A stretch of DNA of 64,000 nt from Actinophytocola xanthii. GTDB taxonomy: Bacteria > Actinomycetota > Actinomycetes > Mycobacteriales > Pseudonocardiaceae. Made by a program: the position numbers and the translations under genes. Below, one piece after another: positions 29,948 through 36,974 of the stretch (position 1 is its first letter; each line of letters begins with the position of its first letter). The notes beneath the pieces are model-generated. The model made no database searches, was not told where the DNA came from, and saw only the letters and a list, made by a program, of their open reading frames with translations. The DNA lies in assembly GCF_001921205.1 (NCBI RefSeq), contig NZ_MSIE01000001.1, forward strand, positions 1 through 64,000, read 5' to 3'.

Positions 29948-30205
29948 ATGAGCAAGATGATCGACGACTGGCGGTACCACGCCGCCTGCCGGGACGCCGA
30001 TCCCGAGCTGTTCTTCCCGGTGTCCGAGATCGGACCCGGTGCACGCCAGGCGGAGCAGGCCAAGGCGACCTGCGCCGGCTGCCCGGTACGCGAGCGCTGC
30101 CTCACCTTCGCCGTCGACAACGGCCTGGACCACGGGGTGTTCGGCGGCACCACCGAGCGGGAGCGGCGCGAGCTCGTTCGCCGCTCGCGCCACCGCGCGG
30201 CCTGA
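29948..30205 (+). CDS. WhiB-like iron-sulphur regulator
   Basis: 85 residues. The four cluster-binding Cys are at 14, 42, 45 and 51 (HAACRD, CAGCPVREC-like spacing), followed by the DHGVFGGTT turn at 61-69 and a basic tail RRSRHRAA. WhiB-like proteins bind a 4Fe-4S cluster and the primary sigma factor to alter transcription. No AT-hook is present, so it is not the WhiB7 type; it resembles the short WhiB1-like class. The SigR-type promoter upstream fits redox control. Confidence 0.93.
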   Translation: MSKMIDDWRYHAACRDADPELFFPVSEIGPGARQAEQAKATCAGCPVRERCLTFAVDNGLDHGVFGGTTERERRELVRRSRHRAA

Positions 30206-30326: not shown

Positions 30327-30710
30327 ATGGGTCCACTCCAGCAGGAGCAGTCCCCACCGCGCCGGGTACGGCGCGGCACGGTGGCCTCGCTCGCGATCGT
30401 CGCCGCGGTGCTGGCCGCAGCGGCGGGTCTGTTCGTCACGCTGGTCGTGACGGAACGGGCCGACACCGCCGAGGTGAACGAGCGGACCGCCGGCGTCGAG
30501 CGCGAGCTCGACGCCGAGCGGGACCGCATCGCCACCAACGAGTCCGATGTGGACGCCCTGGACGCGGAGCGGTCGGCGCTGGAGAGCACCAAGCTGGAGC
30601 TCACGGCGTGCGCCGACCCGGCCAAGGCATCGGTCGTGGCCGCCGAGAGCGGCGACGACGCCGGCCTCGACACGGCCATCCAGCAGATGCTCGTCCACTG
30701 CGGGAGGTGA
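30327..30710 (+). CDS. Membrane-anchored coiled-coil protein, paralogue A
   Basis: 127 residues. Cytoplasmic Arg-rich N-terminus, one membrane helix (about 21-42), then a coiled coil (about 50-90) and a short domain containing LELTAC and ending LVHCGR. GGGAGG sits 6 bases before the ATG. It shares layout and the two Cys contexts with the next protein (ALTAC and FAECR), 5 bases downstream. The C-terminal part should lie outside the membrane, where the two Cys could pair. Function unknown; context suggests a partner of the kinase at 31227. Confidence 0.8.
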   Translation: MGPLQQEQSPPRRVRRGTVASLAIVAAVLAAAAGLFVTLVVTERADTAEVNERTAGVERELDAERDRIATNESDVDALDAERSALESTKLELTACADPAKASVVAAESGDDAGLDTAIQQMLVHCGR

Positions 30711-30715
30711 CCCCG

Positions 30716-31183
30716 ATGACCGACACGCAGAGCCAGGAAACCGTTCGCTACAACGGGTTCCCCTCCCTCGCCGGCCCTGCCCGGGAGAACCCGCCCACCC
30801 CGCCGCGGCCAGAACCGCGACCGCTGTCGTTCGCGCCGCCGTCGGGGCCGCGCCGGAGGACCGCCGTCGTGCTGGCCGTGCTGACGGCGGTGCTGCTCGT
30901 CGGTGCGGGGGTGGCCGCGGGTCTCTACGTCGGTGCCGCCGACGACCGCGCCGTCGCCGAGGAACGGCTGGCCCAGCGCCAGGCCGACCTCGCCGAGGTC
31001 CGCGACCGGGTCGCCAGCAGCGACGACCAGCGGGAACGGGCCGAGCAGGCGAAAACCGCGCTGGAGAACGAGAACGCGGCCCTGACCGCGTGCGTCGAGG
31101 CGGTGCAGCACTACCTGTGGGACGAGCCCGTCGGCGCGGCTCTGACCACGGCGCTGAATACTCTGTTCGCGGAATGCCGGTGA
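30716..31183 (+). CDS. Membrane-anchored coiled-coil protein, paralogue B
   Basis: 155 residues. Pro-rich cytoplasmic N-terminus (about 1-47), one membrane helix (about 49-70), coiled coil (about 75-115) and a C-terminal domain with NAALTACVEAV and the end TLFAECR. Related to the protein just upstream. It lies 43 bases ahead of the kinase-STAND-WD40 gene on the same strand, so the three genes probably form one unit. No known family recognised. Confidence 0.8.
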   Translation: MTDTQSQETVRYNGFPSLAGPARENPPTPPRPEPRPLSFAPPSGPRRRTAVVLAVLTAVLLVGAGVAAGLYVGAADDRAVAEERLAQRQADLAEVRDRVASSDDQRERAEQAKTALENENAALTACVEAVQHYLWDEPVGAALTTALNTLFAECR

Positions 31184-31226
31184 TCCGGCGCCCCGTAGGC
31201 TGAGCCCGGACGACCGGGAGGTCAGC

Positions 31227-34200
31227 ATGGTTGACGCGGTGCCGGAGCTGGGGGCGCCCGAGATGTTCGGGCCGTACCGGCTCGACGGGGTGCTGGGCCG
31301 CGGCGGAATGGGTGAGGTCTACCGCGCGTACGACACGGTGCACCGGCGGACCGTCGCCCTGAAACGGTTGCCGGGCTTCGCGAGCGAGGAGTTCCGGGCC
31401 CGGTTCCGGCGCGAGTCGCGGATCGTCGGCGAGCTGCGCCACCCACACGTGGTGCCGATCAACGACCACGGCGAGATCGACGGCCTGCTGTACCTGGACA
31501 TGCGGCTGGTCGACGGTCCCGACCTCAGGCGGCTGCTGGCCGACGGACCGCTCGAGCCGGCGCGCGCGGTCGGGATCCTCACCCAGGTCGCCTCCGCGCT
31601 CGACGCCGCCCACGCGCGCGGGGTGCTGCACCGCGACGTCAAGCCGGCCAACGTCCTGCTGGACTCCTCGGGCACCGCGTACCTGGCCGACTTCGGCATC
31701 GCCCGGTCGCTCGCCGCCGACGTGACCAGGCTGACCGAGACCGGCGACTACATCGGCACCCTCGACTACATGGCGCCCGAACGCCTCGTGCGCTCCGACG
31801 TCGACGCCGCCTCGGACGTGTACTCCCTGGCGTGTGTGCTGTTCCAGTGCCTGACCGGCCGGGTTCCGTTTCCGGCACAGGACTCCGCGAGCAAGCTCGC
31901 CGCGCAGCTCAACGACCCGCCGCCGGCCCCGTCGCTGTTCGACCGCGCCATCCCACCCGCGATGGACCTCGTGGTGGGCACCGGAATGGACAAGGACCCG
32001 CGGCGGCGCTACCCGTCGGCCGGCGAGCTGATGGCCGCCGCGGCGGCCGTCCTCGCCGAGCCACCCACGGCGACGGTGATCCCGCTGCCGGTCGCCGGCG
32101 ACCCGGGGCAGGGCTACTTCGTCCAGCTGCTGGCGACGGCGGTCGGGCGGCCCGACGCCGACGTGACCAGGACCTCGCCCGACCGCTGCCCGTACCCGGG
32201 CCTGCAGAGCTTCGGTGCCGCCGACAGCGGGTGGTTCTTCGGCCGCGCCCAGGCAGTGCGCGACCTGCTGGCCCGGTTGGCCGGGCAGCGCCCCGAGTCC
32301 GGGCCGCTGCTCGTGGTGGGGGCGTCGGGAGCCGGGAAGTCCTCGCTGCTGCACGCGGGCCTGCTGGCCGCGCATGCCCGTGGCGACGCGGAGGCACCGA
32401 GGCTGGCGATGACGCCGGGCGAACGGCCGGTGATGACGCTGGCCGCCCGGCTGGCCGCGCTGACCGGTGCCGACCCCCAGGGCCTGGCGTGGCGGCTGTA
32501 CCAGCGGCCGGCCGTGTTCGGCGAGCTGTGCCGGGCCGCGGCGGCGCGGTCCAGCGCGCCGCTGCTGGTGGCGGTGGACCAGCTGGAGGAGCTGTTCACG
32601 CACTGCGCGGACGCGCGGGAACGGGAGGCGTTCGCGACCGCGCTCGCCAACGCCTGGCCGGCGCGCGTCGTGCTGGCCGTGCGAGCGGACTTCGTCGAGC
32701 ACTGCATCGCGCTCGCCCCGCTCGCCCCGGCACTCGCCGCGCCCTACGTGCTCGGCCCGCTCTCGGCCGGCGAGCTGGTGGAGGTGATCACCGGACCGGC
32801 CGGGGCGGCCGGACTGACCCTGGAGCCCGGGTTGGTCGACCGGCTGATCACCGACGTCGACGCGGGACGCGATCCCGGCGCGTTGCCGCGGCTGGCCCAC
32901 GCCCTGCGGGAGACGTGGCACAACCGGTCGGGCACCGTGCTCACCCTGGCCGGGTACCAGGCCACCGGCGGGGTCGACCGCGCCGTCGCACTGACCGCGG
33001 ACGGCGTGTACATGCGCCTGGACGAGCAGGACCGGCGCGCGCTGCGCACCGCGATGCTGCGCATGGTCACCCTGCTCGACGGGGGCGGGATCGCGCGGCG
33101 CCGGGCCCACCGGGGCGAGCTACCCCCGCGGCTGCTGGAGAACCTGGTCGCCACCCGCCTGGTCACCGTCGACCGCGACCACGTCACCCTCTCCCACGAC
33201 GCCCTGCTCACCGCCTGGCCACGGCTGCGGGAGTGGGTGGCCGAGGACCGACAGGGCCTGCTGGTCCGCCAACGCCTCCGCGAGGCCGCCGCCGGCTGGT
33301 GGGCCGGCGGCCGGGACCGCGGCGACCTCTACCGGGGGGCCCGCCTCGCCGCCGCCCTCGAGTGGTCCGGCGGACGGTCGGACCTGACGCCGGAGGAGTG
33401 GGCCTTCCTCCAGGCGAGCGACCGGGACCGGCGTCGCACCACCCGGCGGCTGCGCACCCTCGTCGCCGCCCTCGCCACCCTGCTCGTCGTCGCGCTCACC
33501 GCCGGCGTCATCGCCGTCATCTCCCGCAACGACGCCCAACACGAACGCGACCAGGCGTTCTCGCGTCAGCTGGCGGCCGAGTCCCTCAGCCAGGCCTCGG
33601 TGGACCCCGTCGGCGCGATGCGCAGCGCACTGCACAGCTGGCGCGCCGGCCAGACGCCGGAGGCGCGGGGTGCGGTGCTGTCCGCGCCGCTGCTCAGCTT
33701 CCCCGCCGAGATCGACGCCGGGGTGGACCGGGTGATCGCCGCCGACGTGAGCCCGGACGGCAGCCTGATCGCGGTGTCCTCGAGCGACGGCAGGGTCGGG
33801 TTGTGGGACGCGGCGGCACGGCGACGGCTCGAGACCGACATCGCCGGCTCCGGCTCGGTGGTGGCCGTCCGCTTCTCCCCGGACGGCACCCTGCTCGCCG
33901 TGTCCTCGTTGGACAGCGACAGCACCGACGCGAGCGGCGTGGTGATCTGGGAGGTGCCGAGCGGGCGGCGGGTGCGCCGGCTCTCCGACGTCAACCCGGC
34001 GTTCGGACCGCTGGCCTGGCGTCCGGACGGGAAGGGCATCGCGGCGACCTCGGTGACCGCGGACAACACGCCCGGCATAGCCGAATGGGACCCGCGGACC
34101 GGCAACCTCATCCGTTGGGTCGCCCCCGGTGGGAACATCGCCACCAGCCTCGCCTACCACCCGCGCGGGGACCGACTGGCGATCGGACGCGCGGATGGGA

Positions 34201-35693
34201 CGATCGACCTGTGGGACCCGGCGACCGCCACCCGGGTCAGCACGCGGGCCGACCACCGGGACAACACGACCGACCGGGACGGCATACCGATCCAGCTCAC
34301 GATGTCCCCCGCCGGAGACCTGCTGGCGAGCGCGAGCGTGTCGGACAACATGATCCGCTTCTGGAACGCCAGAACCGGCGCGCCCGTGCGCGAGATGGCC
34401 GACGTCACCCGGCACAGCACCGACCCGGGCCAGGGCCCGTCCTCGATCACCTTCTCGGCCGACGGCGCGACCCTCTACACCAACAGCGACCCCGACACGA
34501 TCAGCGTGTGGGACCCGGGCAGCGCGAGCTACCAGGGCGGTCTGCCGCCGGGTCCGCGGGACGGCAGCACCATCGGCGGGACCGTGCTCGCGGTCGCCGT
34601 GGCCGCCGACGGCCGGACCCGGATCGCGGCCAAGAACGACGGCACGGTCCTGCGCTGGTCCACCAACCGGGGCTGGCACACCGAACCCGGTGGCGCGGTC
34701 ACCGGTCTCGCGTTCACCCCGGACGGCAGCGAGGTGACCGCCGGCGACGCCGAGGGCTCGCTGTACTCCTGGGACGTGGCGACCGGTGAGCGCACGGCCG
34801 AGCCGGCGCACGTGGACGGCGGCGTGTTCGCCGTCCGCTACACCCGGCCCGGCGTGCGGATCACCGCCTCGCTCAACGCCACCTTCACCGCCACCCCACC
34901 GCCCAACGGGATCGGGGTGCCGCACACGGTCACGCTCGCCGGACGGGAGTTCCGGGGCGCGATCGCCGTCTCCCCGGACGGCCGCTGGCTGGCCGCGGCG
35001 CACGAGGCGGCGACGACGGCGGCCGACGCGCCCGAGGACAACCGGATCCACGTGTGGGACGCGGAGACGCTCACCGAGCGGGCTGAGTTCGAGCTCGGAC
35101 CGAACAGCCCGGTCGAGCTCGCGTTCTCGCCGGACGGCGACCAGCTGCTGGCGCTCACCAACTCCCCGTTCGACCAGGTCAAGGAGGGCGTCGAGAACGA
35201 CGACAGCGAGGCGAACATGATGACCTGGCAGGTGCCGTCGTTCAGCGGCCCGAAGCGGCGTCCGCTTGGCGATGACACGCTGCTGTCGGTGGTGTACGGC
35301 GCCGGGGGCGACACCCTGGTCACCGGCGGTACCACGGGCAGGATCCAGCTGCGTGACGCGGTGACCGGCGAGCTACGCGAGGAGTTCGGCGAGCACCCCT
35401 CCATAATCCGCCAGCTGGCGATCTCCCCGGACGGACGACTGGTCGCCTCGGTGACCACTGAGGACTCGCTGGTCCGGCTGTGGGACGTCGAACGGCATGA
35501 GCTGGTCGCCGTGCTGCACGGGCACGGTGCCGCGCCGAACCAGATCGAGTTCTCGGCCGACGGGAAGCGGCTGACCACCGGCGGCACCGACACCGACGTC
35601 GGGGTCTGGCACGTCGACCCGGAGGCCGCGGCGGAGGAGCTGTGCGCCAGCCTCACCGAGGCCGGCGTTCCCGACCCCGAACGGCTCTGCTGA
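31227..35693 (+). CDS. Ser/Thr protein kinase fused to a STAND ATPase, membrane helix and WD40 repeats
   Basis: 1,488 residues. Kinase domain at about 15-275: LGRGGMGEVYRAY, Lys46, HRDVKPAN (Asp137), DFG (Asp155), all catalytic residues present. Then an nSTAND1-type ATPase from about 320: CPYPGLQSF, Walker A GASGAGKSS (365-373), Walker B LLVAVDQLEELF (Asp451). A membrane helix lies at about 746-770, followed by WD40 repeats to the end (many SPDG...LWD units). By topology the kinase and ATPase are cytoplasmic and the WD40 sensor is outside, which is unusual. Kinase-STAND-WD40 proteins occur in filamentous actinobacteria and cyanobacteria and some STAND proteins act in phage defence; the role here is unknown. 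Confidence 0.93.
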   Translation: MVDAVPELGAPEMFGPYRLDGVLGRGGMGEVYRAYDTVHRRTVALKRLPGFASEEFRARFRRESRIVGELRHPHVVPINDHGEIDGLLYLDMRLVDGPDLRRLLADGPLEPARAVGILTQVASALDAAHARGVLHRDVKPANVLLDSSGTAYLADFGIARSLAADVTRLTETGDYIGTLDYMAPERLVRSDVDAASDVYSLACVLFQCLTGRVPFPAQDSASKLAAQLNDPPPAPSLFDRAIPPAMDLVVGTGMDKDPRRRYPSAGELMAAAAAVLAEPPTATVIPLPVAGDPGQGYFVQLLATAVGRPDADVTRTSPDRCPYPGLQSFGAADSGWFFGRAQAVRDLLARLAGQRPESGPLLVVGASGAGKSSLLHAGLLAAHARGDAEAPRLAMTPGERPVMTLAARLAALTGADPQGLAWRLYQRPAVFGELCRAAAARSSAPLLVAVDQLEELFTHCADAREREAFATALANAWPARVVLAVRADFVEHCIALAPLAPALAAPYVLGPLSAGELVEVITGPAGAAGLTLEPGLVDRLITDVDAGRDPGALPRLAHALRETWHNRSGTVLTLAGYQATGGVDRAVALTADGVYMRLDEQDRRALRTAMLRMVTLLDGGGIARRRAHRGELPPRLLENLVATRLVTVDRDHVTLSHDALLTAWPRLREWVAEDRQGLLVRQRLREAAAGWWAGGRDRGDLYRGARLAAALEWSGGRSDLTPEEWAFLQASDRDRRRTTRRLRTLVAALATLLVVALTAGVIAVISRNDAQHERDQAFSRQLAAESLSQASVDPVGAMRSALHSWRAGQTPEARGAVLSAPLLSFPAEIDAGVDRVIAADVSPDGSLIAVSSSDGRVGLWDAAARRRLETDIAGSGSVVAVRFSPDGTLLAVSSLDSDSTDASGVVIWEVPSGRRVRRLSDVNPAFGPLAWRPDGKGIAATSVTADNTPGIAEWDPRTGNLIRWVAPGGNIATSLAYHPRGDRLAIGRADGTIDLWDPATATRVSTRADHRDNTTDRDGIPIQLTMSPAGDLLASASVSDNMIRFWNARTGAPVREMADVTRHSTDPGQGPSSITFSADGATLYTNSDPDTISVWDPGSASYQGGLPPGPRDGSTIGGTVLAVAVAADGRTRIAAKNDGTVLRWSTNRGWHTEPGGAVTGLAFTPDGSEVTAGDAEGSLYSWDVATGERTAEPAHVDGGVFAVRYTRPGVRITASLNATFTATPPPNGIGVPHTVTLAGREFRGAIAVSPDGRWLAAAHEAATTAADAPEDNRIHVWDAETLTERAEFELGPNSPVELAFSPDGDQLLALTNSPFDQVKEGVENDDSEANMMTWQVPSFSGPKRRPLGDDTLLSVVYGAGGDTLVTGGTTGRIQLRDAVTGELREEFGEHPSIIRQLAISPDGRLVASVTTEDSLVRLWDVERHELVAVLHGHGAAPNQIEFSADGKRLTTGGTDTDVGVWHVDPEAAAEELCASLTEAGVPDPERLC

Positions 35694-35743
35694 GCGGAAC
35701 CTTCCACCTGCGGTCCGACCTGGGCCCCGCCTAGGTTCGCACC

Positions 35744-36112
35744 ATGGCAACCACGACAGCTCCACGACCGCGGCTGGGCGTCGGCCTCGCCGTGCTGCTC
35801 GGTGTCATCACGCTCGCGAACCTGGCCGCGTTGGGCCTCGCCGTCGCCGCCTGGGCCGACGAGGTCGACCACGGTGCCGAGCTCGGCGACACAGCGCTCA
35901 ACCTGGCCGTGACCGCGACCCTGCTGTCCACCGCGGCGCTCGTCGGCGTGGCCGGCGCGTGGCTGCGCCGGAAATGGGGACCACGGCTCTACGTCGCCGC
36001 CCAGGTGATCGGCTTCGTGCTCCTCCTCGCGCTCGGCGGGGTCGGTCCGCTGACGTTCGTCCCACTGCTGCTGGCCGGGGTGTTGTGGTGGATCGCCGAG
36101 AGCGACTGGTGA
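35744..36112 (+). CDS. Small integral membrane protein
   Basis: 122 residues with four predicted membrane helices (about 11-35, 48-70, 80-98, 101-117). No family recognised. It starts 50 bases after the kinase-STAND gene on the same strand and may belong to the same cluster. Confidence 0.75.
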   Translation: MATTTAPRPRLGVGLAVLLGVITLANLAALGLAVAAWADEVDHGAELGDTALNLAVTATLLSTAALVGVAGAWLRRKWGPRLYVAAQVIGFVLLLALGGVGPLTFVPLLLAGVLWWIAESDW

Positions 36113-36149
36113 CCAGGGCACGCCCTGGAGCACGTCCTAGGGTGGTGCC

Positions 36150-36974
36150 ATGCTCCAGGTGATGGTGCGCGGGGGCGACCTGCACCCCGTGTGCGTGCGC
36201 TCCGGGGAGCGGTTCGTCTTCGGTCGGGACCCGCACGGCGACCGGCCGAGGCCGGGGGTGGTGGCGGTGCGGCTGCCCGGCTGCGCCCCGCACGTCTCGG
36301 GGGTGCTCGCGGAGCTGACCGTTGGTCAGGAGGCCGCGCTGCTGCGCTGGGTGGGCGGCAACGAGGGCCGGCTGTCGAGCCTGCTCGACGCCCCGGGCGG
36401 GGCGCGGCGGGTGACGCTGGTCGCGGCGATGTCGGCGATGCTCGACCCGGGCAAGAACGAGCTCGTGGTGCTGGCCGGCAAGCAGGTGGGCGCCGACCTG
36501 TTCACCGACCTGCTGCTGACGTTCACCGTGACCAGCGGCGAGCCGGACCCGGCGGAGAGCCTGCTCCACCTCCGCCGCGACACCGAGCTGAAACCCCATC
36601 TGCGCAAGGGTTTGCTCACCCGCCACTCGAAGGAGTGGTACGTCGCGCTCGCGTTGGCCGAACCCTGGCTGGCCGGCGACGACGACTCCCCGTTCCCGCC
36701 GACGAACCGGCGGATCTACGAGCGGGTGCGCGAGTGGCGCGCCGGGCACGCCTGGAACCTCGAACGCCCGCAACGAGTCGACGACGCCATCCGTGCCATC
36801 TCCCAGATCGCGTTCGGCGAGCTCGCCGACCCCTACGCCGAAGCACGCGTGGGACGCATCCAGAACCCCCGGTTCGCGGTGGGCAAACGGATCGCCGAGT
36901 ACCGACTGGTCACCGCGGAGGATCTGGACGAGGTGGAGCAGGCTGCCCGGTTCGGCCGAGCGCCGCGGGACTGA
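36150..36974 (+). CDS. Uncharacterised protein with a possible FHA-like N-terminus
   Basis: 274 residues, cytoplasmic. The first 90 residues resemble a diverged FHA fold: FVFGRDPHGDRP (FHA GR), CAPHVSG (FHA SxxH-like, altered) and LLRWVGGNEG (like the W...NG end). The remainder is helical, with NRRIYERVREWRAGH and YAEARVGR. FHA domains bind phosphothreonine, which would fit a substrate or reader of the kinase at 31227. The key Ser/His of FHA are not clear, so this is tentative. Confidence 0.6.
   Translation: MLQVMVRGGDLHPVCVRSGERFVFGRDPHGDRPRPGVVAVRLPGCAPHVSGVLAELTVGQEAALLRWVGGNEGRLSSLLDAPGGARRVTLVAAMSAMLDPGKNELVVLAGKQVGADLFTDLLLTFTVTSGEPDPAESLLHLRRDTELKPHLRKGLLTRHSKEWYVALALAEPWLAGDDDSPFPPTNRRIYERVREWRAGHAWNLERPQRVDDAIRAISQIAFGELADPYAEARVGRIQNPRFAVGKRIAEYRLVTAEDLDEVEQAARFGRAPRD

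Follow-up and report, generated by a model that had tools for sequence, protein, structure and literature searches.

A predicted receptor kinase with a STAND module and its co-inherited FHA-fold partner in Actinophytocola xanthii and related Pseudonocardiaceae

Introduction

Several described systems share parts with a locus of Actinophytocola xanthii that lies at positions 30327-36974 of a 64,000-nucleotide stretch of contig NZ_MSIE01000001.1 (hereafter the window). The locus centres on KSW, which joins a Ser/Thr kinase, an nSTAND1 NTPase, a predicted transmembrane helix and WD40 repeats, and on FHAL, a protein with an FHA-fold domain. PkwA of the actinomycete Thermomonospora curvata resembles KSW in carrying WD40 repeats and a Ser/Thr kinase on a single polypeptide, and the WD40 part of KSW matches the PkwA chain 5yzv at 6.4e-29 in a PDB profile search. 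To our knowledge, PkwA is without a STAND module. STAND proteins have mostly been studied as intracellular sensors. The PkwA title among the references of PMC5587647 names kinase and WD-repeat domains only.

Kaur et al. (2021, PMC8195603) described conflict systems that share with KSW the nSTAND1 NTPase, and their text on these systems lists S/T/Y kinase and FHA among the effectors. As presented there, the systems are built around effector-associated (EAD) domains, whereas the sensor of KSW is predicted to lie outside the cell; no EAD domain was seen in KSW among the 25 of 52 Pfam families listed. The type VII secretion subtypes T7SSd and T7SSe (Garrett 2024, PMC11217815) resemble loci in which relatives of FHAL are found, with a transmembrane kinase, an EssC bearing FHA and WXG100 proteins. 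These FHAL-type loci differ from the subtypes, as the main text presents them, by adding MoxR, DUF58 and transglutaminase genes, and the A. xanthii locus differs in having no EssC or WXG100 gene recognised among its gene calls (PMC11217815). T7SSe is described with a separate FHA protein, TseJ (DUF6382 and FHA), in contrast to FHAL, which matches no Pfam family (PMC11217815). The logic of a kinase with an FHA protein is also that of PpkA and Fha in type VI secretion (Lin 2014, PMC3953482); compared with PpkA as portrayed in that paper, the KSW kinase carries in addition a STAND switch. Each element is thus known separately in the texts of these sources (PMC5587647, PMC8195603, PMC11217815, PMC3953482): proteins that pair a kinase with WD40 repeats, nSTAND1 associated with kinase or FHA effectors, and secretion controlled through a kinase and an FHA protein. 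A literature search with subscription papers and preprints outside its range found no paper on the KSW-FHAL pair.

With its PknE-nearest kinase domain and its EmbR/GarA-like FHA fold, the pair also recalls PknE/PknB and EmbR/GarA. KSW has STAND and WD40 parts in place of what we take to be the sensor parts of PknE and PknB.

Co-inheritance of KSW and FHAL

The two genes on which the analysis centres are as follows.
31227..35693, + strand: KSW, 1488 residues; kinase-nSTAND1-transmembrane-WD40 receptor-like protein
36150..36974, + strand: FHAL, 274 residues; FHA-fold domain, then helical C-terminal domain

KSW was searched for in 249 genomes of the family using a 924-residue query at E 1e-100 or less, with up to three candidates scored per genome. 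The query matches 63 genomes, and by our reading of the matches the kinase-STAND arrangement is present in 28 and a partial match in 35. A single match spans the arrangement in 26 of the 28; in G070 and G133 it was completed from gene calls (loci L096 and L098). Among the partial-match genomes, G235 encodes a STAND-WD40 protein without kinase, G172 is considered below, and the other 33 were judged by match ranges alone. FHAL occurs in 29 of the 249 genomes and in 8 of 46 genera. All 28 kinase-STAND genomes are among these 29, so that the proposed conservation of FHAL with KSW is upheld, and in the 29th, G189, FHAL adjoins a kinase of the type VII type. The co-occurrence has a Fisher value of 3.5e-36, which ignores kinship. 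Within the genus, FHAL and a full KSW occur in five of six genomes; G004 (94% complete, 6% contamination) has no FHAL and no full KSW, and the best KSW match in that genome is limited to residues 283-814. In a phylum-wide sample with two candidates per genome and a strict cut-off, one genome in 396 was positive, A. xanthii itself.

Gene order was read in 42 fetched loci and 80 named loci. KSW-type loci have FHAL downstream of KSW, either as the next gene or after one to three intervening small genes. Among the fetched loci, FHAL without adjacent KSW is seen in L023-L025 and L109-L111, and KSW without adjacent FHAL in L112 and L113. In the unrooted FHAL tree the KSW-linked rows form one side of a single branch with support 99/95. 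The KSW tree has the same two groups as the FHAL tree, where the Saccharothrix-type group has a support of only 82/72. The FHAL tree suggests one partner switch between FHAL and kinases. In the same tree, the three loci of JOAA01, a record under the name Rhodococcus rhodnii NRRL B-16535 (L114, L148 and L193), group with Kibdelosporangium, and this genome probably carries the wrong label.

Inheritance alone, with no joint function, could make KSW and FHAL neighbours. The KSW loci come essentially from one family, hence kinship inflates the counts, and three KSW genes have no directly adjacent FHAL. We consider this explanation improbable: the pair is kept in two KSW clades whose flanks differ and in two-copy genomes, and both genes are absent together in G004. 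Judging by its domain E-values and its conservation in related genomes, the locus is not a chance arrangement. The comparisons support well both the co-inheritance and the predicted anatomy of this putative module of a receptor kinase and an FHA-fold partner.

Architecture and topology of KSW

Five parts of KSW were delimited.
31266..32066, + strand: Ser/Thr kinase domain, PknE/PknB-like, residues 14-280; catalytic residues kept
32190..33320, + strand: nSTAND1 NTPase, residues 322-698; PF20703, E 1.7e-110
33465..33521, + strand: predicted single transmembrane helix, residues 747-765; Arg-rich cytoplasmic side
33717..35636, + strand: WD40 region, predicted outside, residues 831-1470; fastest evolving large part
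35643..35690, + strand: C-terminal tail, with the invariant cysteine pair C1473/C1488

An alignment of 38 KSW rows was used, representing 37 genes (L190_10 is a shortened repeat of L112_3). The kinase matches Pfam Pkinase at residues 17-230 (E 5.2e-44) and has the Hanks-type motifs K46, HRD 135, DFG 155 and APE 183. The last three are conserved across the 38 rows and K46 in 37 of 37, and T170 of the activation loop is invariant in the aligned rows. The closest solved structure to this domain in a PDB profile search is PknE (2h34, 4.2e-78). In the nSTAND1 domain, Walker A (GASGAGKSS, residues 365-373) and Walker B (D451) are likewise conserved, with variation at position 369 of Walker A, and the WD40 match to Pfam consists of 7 stretches (E 1.7e-38). 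The complete Ser/Thr kinase and the nSTAND ATPase with Walker A and B that were claimed by the original prediction are both borne out by these matches and by the motifs kept in relatives.

The top hydrophobic peak (2.46-3.10) lies between the STAND and WD40 parts in 38/38 rows, with 5-8 Lys or Arg residues before it versus 1-4 after it. C1473 and C1488 are invariant, and the ectodomain has two cysteines in 35 rows and six in 3; even cysteine counts in about 700 ectodomain residues fit disulphides outside the cytoplasm. From hydropathy, charge bias and the cysteine pair, KSW is predicted to have one transmembrane helix and an extracytoplasmic sensor, in agreement with the single helix and outward-facing repeats first proposed. 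Mean pairwise identity is 36% in the WD40 part, versus 64% in the kinase and 60% in the STAND part, and such fast evolution of the repeats is as expected for a sensor.

The locus could be viewed as serving phage defence or another conflict, the STAND part being the sensor and the kinase the effector. The text of PMC8195603 places nSTAND1 with kinase or FHA effectors in systems that counter invaders, and PADLOC kinase models match KSW. Among the best 25 of the 35 PADLOC families matched, the model C3a189 'kinase' covers residues 21-576, extending into the STAND part (E 1.8e-49), while the PD-T4-6 models match strongly but within the kinase domain alone, over model positions that range from 12-280 (of 458) to 7-278 (of 292). 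Most of these listed matches lie within the kinase domain, however, and any related kinase would match. The WD40 part is predicted to be extracellular, inheritance of the pair follows stable clades, and part of the window flanks recurs in two of the four other genus loci (L018, L019). No toxin-like gene was recognised in the gene calls, though no search aimed at toxins was made. The defence role raised by the original prediction thus finds no support beyond the PADLOC kinase models, and we regard it as very unlikely.

The FHAL protein

Two domains are distinguished in FHAL.
36150..36539, + strand: FHA-fold domain, residues 1-130; predicted structure
36612..36971, + strand: helical, weakly helix-turn-helix-like C-terminal domain, residues 155-274

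FHAL gave no Pfam, PADLOC or NCBIfam match up to E 1. Its predicted model has an FHA beta-sandwich fold resembling EmbR and GarA, which bears out that the N-terminal domain probably adopts the FHA fold; the fifth protein of the locus is FHA-like, as had been suggested, in its predicted model though not by any sequence-family match. Among 49 aligned FHAL rows, G25-R26, H48 and S50 are invariant.

By analogy with EmbR, FHAL could be a phosphorylation-controlled transcription factor whose C-terminal domain binds DNA. The fold resembles EmbR in the model and the C-terminal domain is weakly helix-turn-helix-like; a PDB profile search with this domain returned a single row at E 0.29, and Foldseek gave no result for it. 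We hold a role in transcription to be conceivable, if doubtful.

FHAL relatives in type VII-like loci

The contexts of 83 FHALs were counted (80 named ones, plus three with labels set by hand: the window, L023 and L024). KSW adjoins 35 of them, 39 are in loci with WXG100-like and/or EssC-sized genes, 2 are beside a kinase alone and 7 are unclear, some of these at contig ends. A 1431-residue protein of L144 matches FtsK_SpoIIIE (1.5e-54) and FHA (4.6e-10) in Pfam, as does its counterpart in L023; elsewhere EssC was assigned by gene size. PF06013 (WXG100) was matched at E 0.01 or less by 17 of 27 small proteins, a selection out of 71 small genes in 38 loci, and the profile of the WXG100-like proteins matches EsxA structures (2vrz, 1.1e-9). 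FHAL loci outside Pseudonocardiaceae accordingly contain both an EssC-like ATPase and WXG100-like proteins. Seven further stretches were read. In six, EssC is followed by a large transmembrane protein and then by MoxR-, DUF58- and transglutaminase-like genes, as judged from size and N-terminus, while the gene calls of L262 have EssC, a MoxR-like gene, a short gene and the kinase only. MoxR, DUF58, transglutaminase and kinase were confirmed by Pfam in L256, and the large transmembrane protein has fn3 in 2/3 tested. A convergent kinase with a transmembrane-like stretch was called in six of the seven, and L260 has a PF00069 match without a called gene.

This FHAL-type locus, which also includes two WXG100-like proteins and an EssC bearing FHA, was seen in L256-L262, L144, L163, L183 and L188, from Nocardioides, Cellulomonas and others. 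It is possibly an undescribed type VII subtype. The main text of PMC11217815 does not mention Nocardioides, Cellulomonas, MoxR, transglutaminase, DUF58 or fibronectin, and its supplements may list the locus.

These contexts raise the idea that KSW-FHAL controls protein secretion, FHAL being a type VII adaptor that a new kinase acquired, and secretion being licensed once the receptor senses its ligand. PpkA and Fha of type VI secretion offer an analogy. The 39 loci just described also speak for it, with FtsK_SpoIIIE and FHA in two EssC-sized proteins, the match of the WXG100-like profile to EsxA and the convergent kinase in 6/7 stretches, as does the KSW locus L022/L123, which adjoins weak WXG100/EspC/PPE-like genes. 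When three candidates per genome were scored, however, a cognate EssC (67% identity or more) was found in no more than three of the 29 genomes with FHAL (G005, G069 and G096, whose extra FHAL is in a type VII context), and the EssC of G112, G127 and G147 is a distant one of FHA-bearing length (37-41% identity). Some EssC-search match occurs in 178/249 family genomes; matches starting near residue 200 or later are common and presumably represent ESX-type EccC, to which the pair could be linked. No EssC/EccC ATPase or WXG100 protein was recognised among the gene calls at 26-42 kb of the window. Since cognate EssC is limited to 3/29 genomes, most KSW-FHAL pairs are without a cognate type VII system, and control of secretion by the pair appears unlikely. 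FHAL as a member of a cognate type VII system in every genome is ruled out by the same scarcity of EssC. Beside the second A. xinjiangensis KSW copy, at L022:8914-11625, a divergent operon has weak WXG100/EspC/PPE matches, all below the cut-off.

The kinases of the type VII-like loci form one family with 55-70% identity, to which the KSW kinase is 36-43% identical; this rules out that it is a type VII kinase that moved along with FHAL. In L024 and L025, the kinases beside FHAL share 39-40% identity with that of KSW. FHAL stays with a kinase while the kinase changes, and this is our main reason to regard it as a probable kinase-responsive partner.

Proposed mechanism

The computations establish the architecture, the conserved catalytic residues, the predicted transmembrane helix with its charge bias, the ectodomain cysteine pair, the FHA fold of the FHAL model, co-inheritance and adjacency; ligand sensing, oligomerisation, kinase activity, phospho-docking and output are inferred. 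The reading that we favour, with somewhat more confidence than doubt, is that KSW works as an NLR-like receptor kinase that signals from outside to inside, with FHAL as its phospho-docking partner. The WD40 propellers would bind an envelope ligand outside the membrane, and the single transmembrane helix would couple this ectodomain to the STAND switch. The switch would oligomerise with ATP and bring the N-terminal kinases together, and the clustered kinases would phosphorylate each other in the T170/T167 loop. FHAL would then dock via its FHA domain on a phosphothreonine of activated KSW or of a KSW substrate, its C-terminal helical domain carrying the signal onward. Because KSW unites a sensor predicted to lie outside, an ATP-driven switch and a cytoplasmic kinase, and is inherited with FHAL, whose relatives are found in protein-secretion clusters, the module looks like cell-surface signalling rather than phage defence.

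Several observations weigh against this receptor reading. The phosphothreonine site of FHA domains is formed in the consensus by the Arg of GR, a Ser, a His and an Asn. FHAL is without the usual His and Asn in the 49 rows, while G25-R26 and S50 are kept. The Pfam FHA profile matches 0/49 FHAL members at E 0.05, a PDB profile search with FHAL found nothing, and hhalign of FHAL against the FHA of EssC gave a probability of 0.3%. The transmembrane helix is deduced from hydropathy, and a second, weaker peak (1.71 to 2.28) is present in 19/38 KSW rows, within the STAND part in 17 and the WD40 part in 2. Three KSW genes (L112, L113, L263) have no adjacent FHAL: there is none near L113 and L263, and in L112 a kinase-type FHAL is kilobases off, two genes away and on the other strand. 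L112 and L113 are inside the first group of the KSW tree. G172 has, on a 3,146-base contig, a STAND-WD40 fragment that is 54% identical in the STAND part, with no FHAL in the genome, and this could be a KSW without FHAL. At L113:3041-5039, two genes are oriented divergently from a KSW without FHAL: one encodes a kinase, and the other has a Pfam FHA match below threshold (0.0039).

A further, tentative proposal, which we would not call probable, is a joint claim: that an NLR-like receptor kinase took over the phosphothreonine adaptor of an undescribed actinobacterial type VII system, and that in Pseudonocardiaceae the adaptor couples WD40 surface sensing to secretion or transcription. The predicted arrangement of KSW puts the STAND switch between a WD40 sensor outside the cell and a putatively active kinase, all in a single polypeptide with a defined partner, and KSW would be a clean test case for STAND-driven kinase activation across a membrane. 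The FHAL family ties kinase-FHA logic to a type VII-like locus in many Actinomycetota, and FHAL is a concrete, testable component for how such systems are switched on.

Accessory genes and locus layout

KSW and FHAL are accompanied by three small genes, with a further gene upstream.
30327..30710, + strand: cc1, 127 residues; basic N-terminus, one hydrophobic helix, coiled-coil-like segment, C-terminal cysteine pair (by eye)
30716..31183, + strand: cc2, 155 residues; proline-rich N-terminus, one hydrophobic helix, coiled-coil-like segment, C-terminal cysteine pair (by eye)
35744..36112, + strand: mem, 122 residues; small multi-pass membrane protein
29948..30205, + strand: WhiB-like regulator (PF02467, 4.3e-25); a neighbour, not assigned to the system

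The ORF (open reading frame) coordinates confirm five same-strand genes with short gaps, of 5 to 50 bases. By eye, cc1 and cc2 each combine a single hydrophobic segment with a charged stretch that looks like a coiled coil, consistent with the two small membrane coiled-coil proteins first described, and sequence comparison identifies them as relatives of each other. Conservation of all five genes together, as originally expected, holds in part. By tblastn of eight fetched stretches, the five are present in three genomes besides the window (G005, G002, G001), that is, in 4/6 genus genomes; G003 has four, with no match to mem, and G004 has neither FHAL nor a full KSW. Relatives of cc1 and cc2 are found only in the window's subclade, in 10 of 34 named KSW loci (L114-L122, L153). 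Relatives of mem occur in 11 of the 34, in both KSW clades and in Saccharothrix, Prauserella and Actinophytocola; that of L171 is upstream on the opposite strand. FHAL is thus the part conserved with KSW, and the five genes as one obligatory unit are ruled out by the patchy distribution of the others. Judging from these relatives, cc1 is a putative clade-specific accessory and mem a putative recurrent third component.

In many loci of Saccharothrix, Umezawaea and Kibdelosporangium, an opposite-strand downstream gene with a signal-like N-terminus is present instead. At L088:10157-12019 the gene beside KSW-FHAL encodes a trypsin-like protease, and similar genes elsewhere were judged by their N-termini; a short gene of no recognised family adjoins the protease gene at L088.

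The draft assembly is 8.34 Mb, and GC content in the window is 69-77% in 2-kb steps. ARAGORN called a tRNA-Ser(GCT) at 31500-31595, within the kinase coding sequence, which is probably a false call. In A. xinjiangensis (L018), a relative of the WhiB-like gene is on the downstream side of the cluster, versus upstream at 29948-30205 in the window.
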